A stretch of 64,000 nt of DNA from positions 124,001 to 188,000 of the forward strand of contig JAFRCV010000008.1 in assembly GCA_017404205.1 (NCBI GenBank), in the 5' to 3' direction. The DNA is from Erysipelotrichaceae bacterium. Its GTDB lineage: Bacteria; Bacillota_I; Bacilli_A; Erysipelotrichales; Erysipelotrichaceae. This document shows positions 5,744 to 11,510 of the stretch, one piece after another (the first letter of the stretch is position 1; the number at the start of each line of letters is the position of its first letter). The notes under the pieces were generated by a model. The model was not told the DNA's origin. It saw only the letters and a list, made by a program, of their open reading frames with translations, and did no database searches. Made by a program: the position numbers and the translations under genes.

Positions 5744-6988
5744 TTACCTTCCAAAATAGCTTACAGGATGTGTTACATGTTCATCCTTAGGGTTAAAACT
5801 CGCTAGTTTCTCATCTTCTAAAGAACGCAAATTGCGAATAGAGTAATAACCAAATCTTTTACGAATATCATAAATGGCAACATCTTTCTTTTTTTCTTTT
5901 AATGAATATTTTATATTGCCATTTAAGTCAATAATGCTTGTTTCCTTTTTATTAGAAAGATTACTAACAGATACGCCTATAGAGCGATAGGGGATTTTAA
6001 AATCTAAATGGTTTATTTCAAATAATTCTAAAGCGGTATTAAAGATGTCACTTGCTAAGTCACTATTTTCACAAAGGCTTTTTTGCATGGTGCGCCATTT
6101 GAGTTTCTTATCTCTTAAGCTTAGATGGATAGTTTTATAAAATAAACCAGCTTCTTTTATTCTTGAGGCAACAGAATCACATAATATATTTAAAACAAGT
6201 TTTAAATCATCCAAGTCATATAAGTCCCTAATAGTGGTAGAAGAATTGCCAATGCTTTTGATTTCTTCTTCATCATCGTCATATCTTCTTACTTTGCTTA
6301 AATCATAACCATTAGCAAAATACCATAAAGTTTCGCCATTTTTTCCTAAAATATTTTTTAAATAATCTTGTGAAGAATAAGCAACATCTTTAATTGAATA
6401 TAAACCATATGATTTTAATTTTTCATATGTGTGAAAGCCAACTCCAAGTAAGTCATTAGCTGGTAGATTTTCAATATCTTCAAGCTTGCTTATCACAAAA
6501 TATGAATCTTCTGCGGCAATATCACTTCCTAATTTTGCCCATATTTTGTTATTAGAAACACCTATGCTCAATGTTAATCCAATCTCTTCTTTAACTCTTC
6601 TTAAGATATTTTCCACAATATATTTAATTGAACCAAAATATTTTATACTTGAACTAATATCCAACCAACATTCATCAGGACCAAACGATTCAACTTTATC
6701 TGTATATTCGTAATATAATTTTTTTACTTGATTTGAATAATATGTATATGAATCATAATCTGGTTTTCTGATAATTAAATTAGGACATTTATTTTTTGCT
6801 TCAAAAATAGCTTCAGCAGTTTTAACTCCAGCTTTTTTAGCCAATACATTTTTAGCTAAAATGATGCCATGTCTATTTTCTGGATCACCAGCAATAGCCA
6901 TCGGTACATTTCTTAATTCTGGATGATATAACATTTCAACTGATGCATAAAAGCAATTTAAATCGCAGTGAAGTATTATCTTGTTCAT
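5744..6988 (-). CDS. dinB: DNA polymerase IV (Y-family translesion polymerase)
   Basis: Error-prone Y-family polymerase for lesion bypass. The 414 residues start MNKIILHCDLNCFYASVE (catalytic Asp9), continue with the second acidic cluster FGPDECWLD, thumb residues GVGFHTYEKLKSYGL and a little-finger domain with SIGNSSTTIRDL. It ends HPVSYFGR, without an obvious QLxLF clamp motif. The promoter (TTGAAC, 16 bases, TATAAT) ends six bases before the ATG, predicting a leaderless transcript. It faces a LexA-like repressor gene across 76 bases containing an 11-bp direct repeat; damage-inducible control is the likely reading. Confidence 0.95.
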   Translation of the reverse strand: MNKIILHCDLNCFYASVEMLYHPELRNVPMAIAGDPENRHGIILAKNVLAKKAGVKTAEAIFEAKNKCPNLIIRKPDYDSYTYYSNQVKKLYYEYTDKVESFGPDECWLDISSSIKYFGSIKYIVENILRRVKEEIGLTLSIGVSNNKIWAKLGSDIAAEDSYFVISKLEDIENLPANDLLGVGFHTYEKLKSYGLYSIKDVAYSSQDYLKNILGKNGETLWYFANGYDLSKVRRYDDDEEEIKSIGNSSTTIRDLYDLDDLKLVLNILCDSVASRIKEAGLFYKTIHLSLRDKKLKWRTMQKSLCENSDLASDIFNTALELFEINHLDFKIPYRSIGVSVSNLSNKKETSIIDLNGNIKYSLKEKKKDVAIYDIRKRFGYYSIRNLRSLEDEKLASFNPKDEHVTHPVSYFGR

Positions 6989-6994
6989 ACTTTA

Positions 6995-7022
6995 ATTATA
7001 CTTGAAAAATATTCATGTTCAA
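6995..7022 (-). promoter_or_regulatory. dinB promoter, leaderless type
   Basis: Read on the minus strand: TTGAAC (7022-7017), 16-base spacer, TATAAT (7000-6995), then six bases and the ATG (6988). One copy of the ACTTGAAAAAT repeat (7000-7010) covers the -10/spacer region. Confidence 0.8.
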
Positions 7023-7038
7023 TAATTACTTGAAAAAT
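7000..7038. promoter_or_regulatory. Paired ACTTGAAAAAT repeats, candidate repressor operators
   Basis: Identical 11-bp direct repeats at 7000-7010 and 7028-7038, 28 bp apart. The first covers the dinB -10 edge and spacer; the second contains the -35 (TTGAAA, 7030-7035) of the LexA-like gene. Each repeat is placed to block one of the two divergent promoters. Binding by the adjacent regulator is inference. Confidence 0.5.
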
Positions 7039-7058
7039 TTTCTATTATTTTTTATTAT
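7030..7058 (+). promoter_or_regulatory. Promoter of the LexA-like regulator, leaderless type
   Basis: TTGAAA (7030-7035), 17-base spacer, TATTAT (7053-7058), six bases, ATG at 7065. No Shine-Dalgarno. Confidence 0.75.
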
Positions 7059-7064
7059 TAAGTT

Positions 7065-7655
7065 ATGAAATTCAAAGAGAACTTAAGATATTTAAGACAT
7101 AGTAATAATATGTCTCAAGAAGATTTAGCTAAAAAATTTGGCTATAAGTCATTCACAACAGTTCAAAAATGGGAAGATGGCACAGCTTTTCCTAAAATTG
7201 AAAATCTAAATAAAATTGCTCAAATATTTAATGTTGAATTAGATCACTTATTAAATGTTGATTTGCGAACTAATAAAGTTAAAGTTCCTGTTTTAGGTGA
7301 AGTTAAAGCTGGCTATGATATGTATATTAACGAAGAAATACTTGGATATGAATATTTAAACAATAATGAATATACACCTGGCGAATACTTTTATTTAAAA
7401 GTAAAAGGCGATTCAATGATTAATGATCGTATTTGTGAAGGCGATATAGTCTATGTCCGCAAACAAGATTATCTTGAAAATAATGATTTGGGTGTCTTTG
7501 TTATTGATAATGATGAAGTAACAATAAAAAGAATTGAATATAGAGACGATGGTGTTGTATTGAAAGCTTCAAATAAAAAATATTCTGATCGTTATTTTGA
7601 TAACGATAATATTAAAATATTAGGTAAGGTATTACATAACAAGGTGCTATTCTGA
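7065..7655 (+). CDS. XRE-HTH / S24 peptidase repressor, LexA/CI-like
   Basis: A 196-residue self-cleaving repressor. Residues 5-62 are an XRE-type helix-turn-helix (MSQEDLAKKFGYKSFTTVQKWE). The C-terminal S24 domain has cleavage-site Ala82-Gly83, catalytic Ser117 in KGDSM and Lys155 in EVTIKRI, with spacing close to LexA. The HTH is CI/XRE type rather than the winged helix of LexA. It lies divergent from dinB with repeated operator-like sites between, suggesting it acts as the SOS-type repressor of dinB and of itself. Its stop overlaps the next ATG (TGATG). No phage genes are near, so a prophage origin is not favoured. Confidence 0.85.
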   Translation: MKFKENLRYLRHSNNMSQEDLAKKFGYKSFTTVQKWEDGTAFPKIENLNKIAQIFNVELDHLLNVDLRTNKVKVPVLGEVKAGYDMYINEEILGYEYLNNNEYTPGEYFYLKVKGDSMINDRICEGDIVYVRKQDYLENNDLGVFVIDNDEVTIKRIEYRDDGVVLKASNKKYSDRYFDNDNIKILGKVLHNKVLF

Positions 7656-7903
7656 TGAAAATTAAATATCGTTTTATATATTTCTTTACTTCTTTCTTTG
7701 CCTATGTAGCATTGGCATTTTTAGATTTCTTTGTTTTAAGATATTTGTTAGAAATGATTAGTACAAATTATCTTGTCCATACAATTATGATGCTAATATG
7801 TTTAATAATCATTAATCCAATAATTGTATATTATTTGATTAATTATTTGCCTATTAAACCAAAACTAAAAAAATTAGAAAAAACAGCTATTACTGACAAG
7901 TAA
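7655..7903 (+). CDS. Small membrane protein, function unknown
   Basis: An 82-residue hydrophobic protein with two to three membrane segments (about 7-30, 37-65) and a lysine-rich cytoplasmic tail PKLKKLEKTAI. No recognised family. It overlaps the stop of the S24 repressor by one base, so it should be produced with it; a membrane-linked damage-response role is possible but unsupported. Its final codons and stop make the stem of the following terminator. Confidence 0.6.
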   Translation: MKIKYRFIYFFTSFFAYVALAFLDFFVLRYLLEMISTNYLVHTIMMLICLIIINPIIVYYLINYLPIKPKLKKLEKTAITDK

Positions 7904-10734: not shown

Positions 10735-10810
10735 TGGTGGTTCCGGCCAGAATTGAACTGGCGACACATGGATTTTCAGTCCATTGCTCTACCAACTGAG
10801 CTACAGAACC
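10735..10810 (-). tRNA. tRNA-Phe (GAA)
   Basis: Cloverleaf on the minus strand, 76 nt with encoded CCA. Anticodon loop CTGAAAA gives GAA. Acceptor GGTTCTG pairs with CGGAACC with one T-G wobble. Last gene of the nine-tRNA cluster before its terminator. Confidence 0.95.
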
Positions 10811-10812
10811 AT

Positions 10813-10889
10813 TGGTTGCGAGGGAAGGATTTGAACCAACGACCTCCGGGTTATGGGCCCGACGAGCTGCCAGACTGCTCTACCTCGCG
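10813..10889 (-). tRNA. Initiator tRNA-fMet (CAT)
   Basis: 77 nt with CCA. The acceptor has the initiator-specific C1 x A72 mismatch (CGCGAGG against CCTCGCA), and three G-C pairs (GGG/CCC) close the anticodon stem next to the loop CCATAAC-type sequence. This separates it from the two other CAT tRNAs in the cluster. Confidence 0.93.
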
Positions 10890-10897
10890 ATATATAA

Positions 10898-10988
10898 TGG
10901 CGGAGGAACTGGGATTCGAACCCAGGCGCCGGTTTCCCGACCTACCGGTTTTCAAGACCGGACCCTTCAGCCACTTGGGTATTCCTCC
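10898..10988 (-). tRNA. tRNA-Ser (TGA)
   Basis: 91 nt with a long variable arm and encoded CCA. Anticodon loop CTTGAAA gives TGA (reads UCN, mainly UCA). G73 discriminator, as expected for serine. Confidence 0.94.
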
Positions 10989-11003
10989 GTAGTTATAAAA
11001 TTA

Positions 11004-11080
11004 TGGTGGACCCTCAGGGACTCGAACCCGGGACCGACCGGTTATGAGCCGGTTGCTCTGACCAACTGAGCTAAGGGTCC
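11004..11080 (-). tRNA. tRNA-Ile2 (CAT, expected lysidine-modified)
   Basis: 77 nt with CCA. Anticodon loop CTCATAA. The body (GGACCCTTAGCTCAGTTGG start, GGCTCATAACC arm) resembles AUA-reading Ile2 whose C34 is changed to lysidine by TilS. A separate elongator-type Met tRNA lies next to it, which supports this call; sequence alone cannot exclude a second Met tRNA. Confidence 0.75.
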
Positions 11081-11084
11081 AAAA

Positions 11085-11161
11085 TGGTAGCGAGGGTGGG
11101 ACTCGAACCCACGACCTTCCGGGTATGAACCGAACGCTCTAGCCAACTAAGCAACCTCGCC
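11085..11161 (-). tRNA. Elongator tRNA-Met (CAT)
   Basis: 77 nt with CCA. Anticodon loop TTCATAC, as in Bacillus elongator Met tRNA. The acceptor GGCGAGG/CCTCGCT is paired at position 1 (G-T), unlike the initiator. Confidence 0.85.
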
Positions 11162-11178
11162 ATGCTTTAGATAAAAAA

Positions 11179-11255
11179 TGGTCGGGATGACAGGATTCGA
11201 ACCTGCGACACCTTGATCCCAAATCAAGTACTCTACCAAGCTGAGCTACATCCCG
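11179..11255 (-). tRNA. tRNA-Pro (TGG)
   Basis: 77 nt with CCA. Anticodon loop TTTGGGA gives TGG. Acceptor CGGGATG with A73. Confidence 0.94.
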
Positions 11256-11264
11256 AATTCTAAG

Positions 11265-11341
11265 TGGCGCGCCCAGTAGGACTTGAACCCGCAACCTTTT
11301 GATCCGTAGTCAAACGCTCTATCCAGTTGAGCTATGGGCGC
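11265..11341 (-). tRNA. tRNA-Arg (ACG)
   Basis: 77 nt with CCA. Anticodon loop CTACGGA gives ACG, which needs A34-to-inosine editing by TadA to read CGU/CGC/CGA. G73 discriminator. Confidence 0.94.
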
Positions 11342-11347
11342 AATAGA

Positions 11348-11433
11348 TGGTGGGGATGGAGGGAGTTGAACCCTCACGGTATTGCTACCAAGGGATTTTA
11401 AGTCCCTCGCGTCTACCATTCCGCCACATCCCC
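11348..11433 (-). tRNA. tRNA-Leu (TAA)
   Basis: 86 nt with a long variable arm and CCA. Anticodon loop CTTAAAA gives TAA, the major leucine codon tRNA in an AT-rich genome. Confidence 0.95.
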
Positions 11434-11436
11434 ATG

Positions 11437-11510
11437 TGGAGGTTCCTACCAGATTCGAACCGGTGATCACAGAGTTGCAGTCTATTGCCTTACCACTTGG
11501 CTAAGGAACC
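11437..11510 (-). tRNA. tRNA-Cys (GCA)
   Basis: 74 nt with CCA and the cysteine-specific U73 discriminator. Anticodon loop CTGCAAC gives GCA. First gene of the cluster, nearest the promoter. Confidence 0.94.

Follow-up and report, generated by a model that had tools for sequence, protein, structure and literature searches.

A CI-type S24 repressor divergent from dinB as a candidate LexA substitute in Erysipelotrichaceae

The dinB-repressor locus and the search for LexA

Can a phage-type repressor encoded beside dinB take the place of LexA in a bacterium of the Erysipelotrichaceae? The question is raised by a locus in the window (the whole 64,000-nucleotide stretch of DNA that was analysed), where a 76-bp gap separates dinB from a divergently transcribed repressor gene with HTH_3 and Peptidase_S24 domains (Table 1). 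The source genome (1.62 Mb in 23 contigs, completeness 99.69%) has assemblies named 'Solobacterium sp.' and 'Erysipelotrichaceae bacterium' as its nearest named relatives. The dinB product matched the NCBIfam models of DNA polymerase IV with scores below their cut-offs. An ORF of 82 aa (7655-7903), without a match in Pfam or NCBIfam, overlaps the stop codon of the repressor gene and may be cotranscribed with it. Nine tRNA genes are clustered at 10735-11510 on the minus strand, and the short ORFs listed in that interval are therefore regarded as spurious.

Table 1. Features of the dinB-repressor locus, in window coordinates
Feature	Position	Strand	Description	Basis or remark
dinB	5744..6988	-	Y-family DNA polymerase IV, 414 aa	Pfam IMS, IMS_C, IMS_HHH_1
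Predicted dinB promoter	6995..7022	-	TTGAAC-16-TATAAT; -35 at 7022-7017, -10 at 7000-6995	consensus match only
Operator O1	7000..7018	.	ACTTGAAAAATATTCATGT, 19-bp palindrome, 1 mismatch	spans the dinB -35/-10 spacer; place conserved in relatives
Operator O2	7028..7046	.	ACTTGAAAAATTTTCTATT, 19-bp palindrome, 2 mismatches, the right arm being degraded	over the repressor -35
Predicted repressor promoter	7030..7058	+	TTGAAA-17-TATTAT; -35 at 7030-7035, -10 at 7053-7058	consensus match only
Repressor gene	7065..7655	+	XRE/CI-type S24 repressor, 196 aa, proposed LexA substitute	HTH_3 (3.6e-11), Peptidase_S24 (2e-27)
HTH recognition motif	7143..7175	+	YKSFTTVQKWE, codons 27-37; tracks the operator	sequence comparison
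Predicted self-cleavage bond	7308..7313	+	Ala-Gly, codons 82-83	family alignment
Catalytic Ser	7413..7415	+	codon 117	Ser in 62/62 family repressors
Catalytic Lys	7527..7529	+	codon 155	Lys in 61/62 family repressors, the remaining one truncated

The initial annotation had described a complete S24 autocleavage site in this protein, joined to a DNA-binding domain of the XRE type and not of the LexA type, and both descriptions are borne out by the sequence. The residues A82-G83, S117 and K155 are in place, so that the protein has the Ala/Cys-Gly bond and the Ser-Lys dyad of self-cleaving S24 repressors. Position 83 is glycine in all 62 family repressors compared, and position 82 is Ala in 46, Gly in 11, Thr in 4 and Cys in one of them; the proteins with Gly or Thr at this position may be poorly cleaved. 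The canonical LexA model (TIGR00498) matched residues 65-190 only, with a score of 98.9 bits that is below its cut-off of 110.95, and the N-terminus is an HTH_3 domain without a match to the winged-helix LexA DNA-binding domain (PF01726). In an AlphaFold2 model (pLDDT 82.5, pTM 0.59) the cleavage region 83-90 had low confidence; the best PDB match of the model was the Thermotoga LexA (3k2z), with the lambda and 186 repressors lower in the list.

A substitute for LexA presupposes a host that lacks it. A profile search for PF01726 gave no match in any of six genomes of the genus, including the one under study, and neither box type of the better known SOS systems was found near dinB: there was no Bacillus subtilis-type CGAAC-N4-GTTCG at up to two mismatches and no Escherichia coli-type CTGT-N8-ACAG at up to one, in agreement with the earlier view that the operator here belongs to neither type. 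It could be argued that a canonical LexA was missed in a genome of 23 contigs by what was a single profile search, and that the S24 protein is a secondary regulator. We consider this extremely improbable, given the high completeness of the assembly, the matches of the search to its positive controls (E. coli, B. subtilis and others), the zero matches in six related genomes, and the lack of either box near dinB. Thus LexA appears to be absent from the genus, as judged from these six genomes.

At the level of the family, PF01726 matches at E<=0.001 were found in 63 of 145 genomes, 28 of them over the cut-off. Inspection of 13 of these loci by eye identified most as HrcA, MarR or GntR proteins, and three (L060, L065, L066) had no clear protein; a single true LexA, in genome G108, was recognised among the 13 (201 aa, TIGR00498 138.5 bits), and canonical LexA was accordingly rejected as a general feature of the family. 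LexA is likely absent from the family, where the PF01726 matches beyond the inspected loci were judged by frame length alone. The genome G108 holds both this LexA (L366:1133-1738) and, beside dinB, an S24 repressor of the non-A type defined below.

Putative operators at dinB, the repressor gene and pgsA-recA

The 11-mer ACTTGAAAAAT, noticed earlier at 7000-7010 and 7028-7038, is present at both positions, and its placement on the dinB -10/spacer and over the repressor -35 agrees with a promoter scan. The scan found two promoter-like sites against a shuffle average of 2.4 and by itself proves nothing. The interpretation of the 11-mer as a direct-repeat operator was abandoned, since the upstream regions of relatives conserve a 19-bp inverted repeat, ACTTGAA-N5-TTCAAGT, of which each 11-mer is the left arm. 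The centres of the two operators, O1 and O2, are 28 bp apart, and their positions across the dinB -10/-35 and over the repressor -35 fit repression by blocking of the polymerase. Both predicted -10 elements end 6 nt before the ATG, at the starts 6988 (dinB) and 7065 (repressor), and both mRNAs may be leaderless at this locus; in several relatives, by contrast, the repressor start is preceded by a Shine-Dalgarno-like stretch.

The palindrome was found upstream of the repressor gene (no more than 130 bp from its start) in 20 of 20 loci, comprising our own and 19 from relatives (L016-L034), and a second copy stands 28-30 bp away in 15 of them, the other five having a single site. In the window, three matches with up to two mismatches were observed where 0.80 would be expected (3 of 100 shuffles gave at least as many), and two of the three fall at the dinB-repressor promoter region. 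As a genome-wide marker the 11-mer was rejected, because 13 of its 15 exact copies in the genome lie inside long ORFs and the only intergenic pair is formed by the arms of O1 and O2. The informative unit is the palindrome, and the 11-mer alone is weak evidence.

In addition to O1, the whole genome contains only one site with no more than one mismatch. This site, ACTTGAAAATTAATCAAGT, is also the best match in the genome (score 25.1) and stands 34 bp ahead of pgsA, which is followed after 29 bp by recA; the gene families of both were confirmed. The same box is thus found at the recA operon and at a translesion polymerase. The earlier proposal to look for copies ahead of repair genes had a favourable outcome, as the palindrome precedes pgsA-recA. 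The uvrA and second Y-family polymerase genes of this genome have no recognisable box.

We scored the pgsA upstream regions of the genus with a matrix built from repressor/dinB sites only, at a threshold of 11.5. Thirty loci were fetched and 29 scored, one lacking its 5' end. A site was present in 26 of the 29, at -33 to -48 in 25 of them; three regions were without one, and in one locus the site and the start codon overlap. As a null we used 874 windows of 280 bp, the length of the pgsA upstream windows, from uvrA and rarA loci (mostly coding DNA, without L239 and L299); only 2 of them reached the threshold. A scan of 36 genus genomes at up to one mismatch found 66 sites (rows summed), compared with 22 for the reversed control. 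Outside the genus, a box precedes pgsA in 13 and recA in 2 of 40 genomes with an A-type repressor, 15 in all. No box ahead of either gene was found in 20 non-A genomes; the 40 exclude G017, whose repressor match is weak, and the HTH motif of G138, G015 and G105 was left unread in this comparison. In the non-A genomes tried for their own non-A operators no convincing copy stood ahead of pgsA or recA.

These numbers bear on a narrower explanation, in which control by the repressor is limited to its own gene and dinB, the site at pgsA-recA having arisen by chance or being used by a different factor. Such restricted units have precedents, as Lactococcus lactis HdiR and Francisella FddR are reported to leave recA alone; moreover, 25 of the 40 A-type genomes outside the genus have no box at recA or pgsA, and uvrA of our genome has none. 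A coincidence is difficult to reconcile with 26 of 29 genus pgsA regions carrying the box, 25 of them at the same distance, or with the pgsA site being the strongest in the genome and the only other one within one mismatch. We therefore regard the narrower explanation as unlikely and retain pgsA-recA as a candidate target.

Extension of the regulon beyond these genes was less productive. With up to two mismatches allowed, 27 sites were counted in the genome and 26 with the reversed control, and this pattern was rejected as a means of finding further members. Fifteen of the 27 were inspected, and four proved intergenic, namely O1, O2, the pgsA-recA site, and a site (L044) where no gene of at least 90 aa starts within 200 bp. 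The second Y-family polymerase has a site scoring at least 11.5 in 12 of 26 genus loci scored. As core members, uvrA and rarA were rejected, with a site in 1/29 and 1/15 loci, respectively, both in genome G151. In a different genus an exact site lies between uvrB (named by eye) and uvrA (L183, L184). Single cases at ssb (L180) and mutL (L202) were left out of the counts; the genome of the ssb box, G031, has a weak repressor match only.

Several boxes stand ahead of genes of other kinds. TnpB-type genes in two genus genomes have a box 21-32 bp upstream (L163:2001-2019 and L171:2001-2019), as if a transposon gene came under SOS control; the L171 box is exact and its gene matches NCBIfam guided_TnpB, and the L163 gene was judged by eye. 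In the A-type genome G044 an exact box (L179:1501-1519) precedes a different XRE gene by 15 bp, perhaps reflecting control of a prophage by the host SOS repressor. Near-boxes were also seen in three genus genomes (L130, L144, L150), each 12-21 bp upstream of a small gene followed by FeoAB-like genes (assigned by eye).

Recognition motif and operator in the family and in phages

Among the 145 family genomes, some repressor match was found in 140 and a dinB match in 138, and the two genes lie divergently side by side in at least 55, two of them with a gap near 1 kb; this count compares the matches listed, which cover 113 and 74 genomes. All of the best 30 family matches read Y[KRT]SFTT[IV]QKWE, 27 with KSFTT and three with TSFTT or RSFTT. 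The repressors of this KSFTT type (A type) have the box in 37 of 37 loci, with a lowest score of 11.6, and in 17 of 17 when the 20 loci used to train the matrix are excluded. In contrast, repressors with another HTH at the same dinB position (non-A) have it in none of 25 loci, the highest score being 7.1. One locus without a clear start (L360) was dropped from this contrast, there may be overlap between the two collections, and for some of the 37 repressors dinB is located elsewhere. Few independent events underlie the contrast, since for the most part a single split of the tree separates the A from the non-A chromosomal repressors. In the loci of non-A repressors other palindromes stand beside dinB, for example TGTTCCAAAAATCAATATATTTTGGAACA and TGTTGCGTATTTCTATTGATATACGCAACA; they include GTTCC..GGAAC, TTGCGTA..TACGCAA, GTTGCAT..ATGCAAC and similar ones.

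Phages provided further cases. When viral contigs were searched with the alignment, six loci were obtained; the motif reads KSFTTIQKWE in five of them and KSCSTIQKWE in the sixth. All six, which were picked by their HTH sequence and not by the box, have one to four boxes scoring at least 15 within 500 bp of the HTH. Four of five viral frames (L429-L433) are 108-149 aa long, too short for a full S24 domain. Among ten named phages chosen from the HTH matches, Streptococcus phage Javan91 alone has KSFTT and alone has the box, with three sites scoring at least 19, two of them in the cI-cro interval; the best score of the other nine anywhere in 2.4-2.6 kb was 8.3. Altogether, the box accompanies 7 of 7 phage repressors with this HTH type and 0 of 9 with other types. 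In a tree of S24 domains alone, read without support values, Javan91 pairs with phage 315.3, from which it differs in both HTH and operator, and phage 2638A falls among the A-type S24 domains yet has another HTH and no box. The CI-type repressors of Javan91 and of the contigs L429-L433 thus share with the window repressor the recognition motif and the operator near the repressor gene; they differ in being phage proteins, presumably serving lysogeny. The window repressor itself is one of an Erysipelotrichaceae set, and in the phage comparison the box follows the HTH and not the S24 domain.

The same data weigh on the proposal that a different regulator binds the palindrome, the neighbouring S24 protein being unrelated or of prophage type. 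These genomes do encode other XRE and S24 proteins, with several matches per genome, G044 has its exact box ahead of a different XRE gene, and the assignment of the palindrome to the repressor comes from sequence. Such a regulator would, however, have to account for a box that follows the HTH motif across genera and phages, including the two phage cases where S24 and HTH disagree, and for the two Javan91 boxes in the cI-cro interval. We judge it very improbable, and the adjacent repressor remains the preferred candidate for binding.

Known systems, proposed mechanism and meaning

The idea that an S24 repressor of phage type can replace LexA is not new, and four published systems were compared with the window locus. 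The LexA-like S24 repressor HdiR of Lactococcus and Streptococcus, in hosts described as lacking LexA, controls itself and a UmuC-type polymerase (PMC1592510, PMC8565304), and in S. thermophilus also cinA-recA (PMC8565304). The window repressor resembles it in host context and in its putative control of itself and a translesion polymerase, but belongs to a different family, with dinB adjacent and divergent; its palindrome is also distinct, since the L. lactis consensus, reported as tttATCAGtTtttCTGATaaa, has the form ATCAG-tTttt-CTGAT, which the operator of our locus does not have. FddR of Francisella combines a phage-type HTH (PF01381) with S24, has a palindromic self-operator, and forms divergent fddR-dinB units in two species; its operator is GTG-N11-CAC, recA is given as uninduced, and the protein is stated to be absent outside Francisella (PMC13148647). 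The likeness extends to domains, self-operator and divergent dinB, but not to the operator sequence, which at the window locus is ACTTGAA-N5-TTCAAGT. The non-canonical LexA of Bacteroidetes, with a CI-like N-terminal domain and S24, runs an SOS regulon through GGA-N5-TCC and CTAA-N5-TTAG and is reported as restricted to that phylum (PMC8565304); its regulon is larger and its operators differ from the one described here.

The fourth system is UmuDAb from LexA-less Acinetobacter, described as repressing itself and error-prone polymerases through AACTTGAA-N11-TTCAAGTT with the required co-repressor DdrR (PMC4807011, PMC11332147). Its half-site is identical to the arm of the window operator, but the spacing is 11 instead of 5, and its N-terminal domain (L445) is a different one without the KSFTT motif, so the common arm looks convergent. 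Exact ACTTGAA-N11-TTCAAGT occurs in five loci (L090, L096, L187, L337, L361) in the repressor/dinB region of the A-type genomes G044 and G020, where this spacing arises from arms of neighbouring sites or from chance overlap. The operator, the clade, the HTH-operator code common with phages, and the graded regulon were not found in the literature searched, nor was any work on LexA or SOS control in Erysipelotrichaceae; subscription journals and preprints were outside the coverage of this search.

From the sites, their conservation, the link to HTH type, the catalytic residues, and the lack of a LexA DNA-binding domain, we infer binding, repression, RecA-stimulated cleavage and induction by damage. 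A homodimer of the CI-type repressor would bind ACTTGAA-N5-TTCAAGT. At O1 it would lie over the -35/-10 interval of the dinB promoter and at O2 over the -35 of its own gene, and from the third site it would hold down the pgsA-recA operon. Upon formation of RecA filaments on single-stranded DNA, the S24 domain would cut its own Ala82-Gly83 bond via Ser117/Lys155, and the dimer would dissociate, switching on dinB, recA and the repressor gene. It is highly probable that this protein recognises the palindrome and, in response to damage, controls its own gene as well as dinB and pgsA-recA. The initial description of an SOS switch built on a phage-CI-type repressor is supported by the operator at pgsA-recA and by the missing LexA domain, the control of the genes being predicted. 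Our best reading is that of a LexA-less, SOS-like response under a CI-type repressor, which would work like HdiR and FddR with a different operator.

A broader scenario, tentative and held with somewhat less than even confidence, is that the Erysipelotrichaceae lost LexA and rebuilt an SOS response from the self-contained repressor/dinB unit, with DNA specificity exchanged more than once and targets recruited in the order dinB, recA, the second polymerase, and then uvrA and rarA. A 2026 paper on Francisella proposes that SOS networks are rebuilt stepwise from divergently transcribed repressor/gene units (PMC13148647). This model can be tested directly in the Erysipelotrichaceae, where numerous genomes represent different steps and both the operator and the recognition motif are readable. 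If the A type indeed has an operator code common to temperate phages, the host SOS repressor and phage CI proteins could bind each other's operators, predicting cross-immunity or coupled induction. In the organism studied here, a gut bacterium without LexA, an error-prone polymerase and the recA operon both appear to be governed by a self-cutting repressor of viral type.
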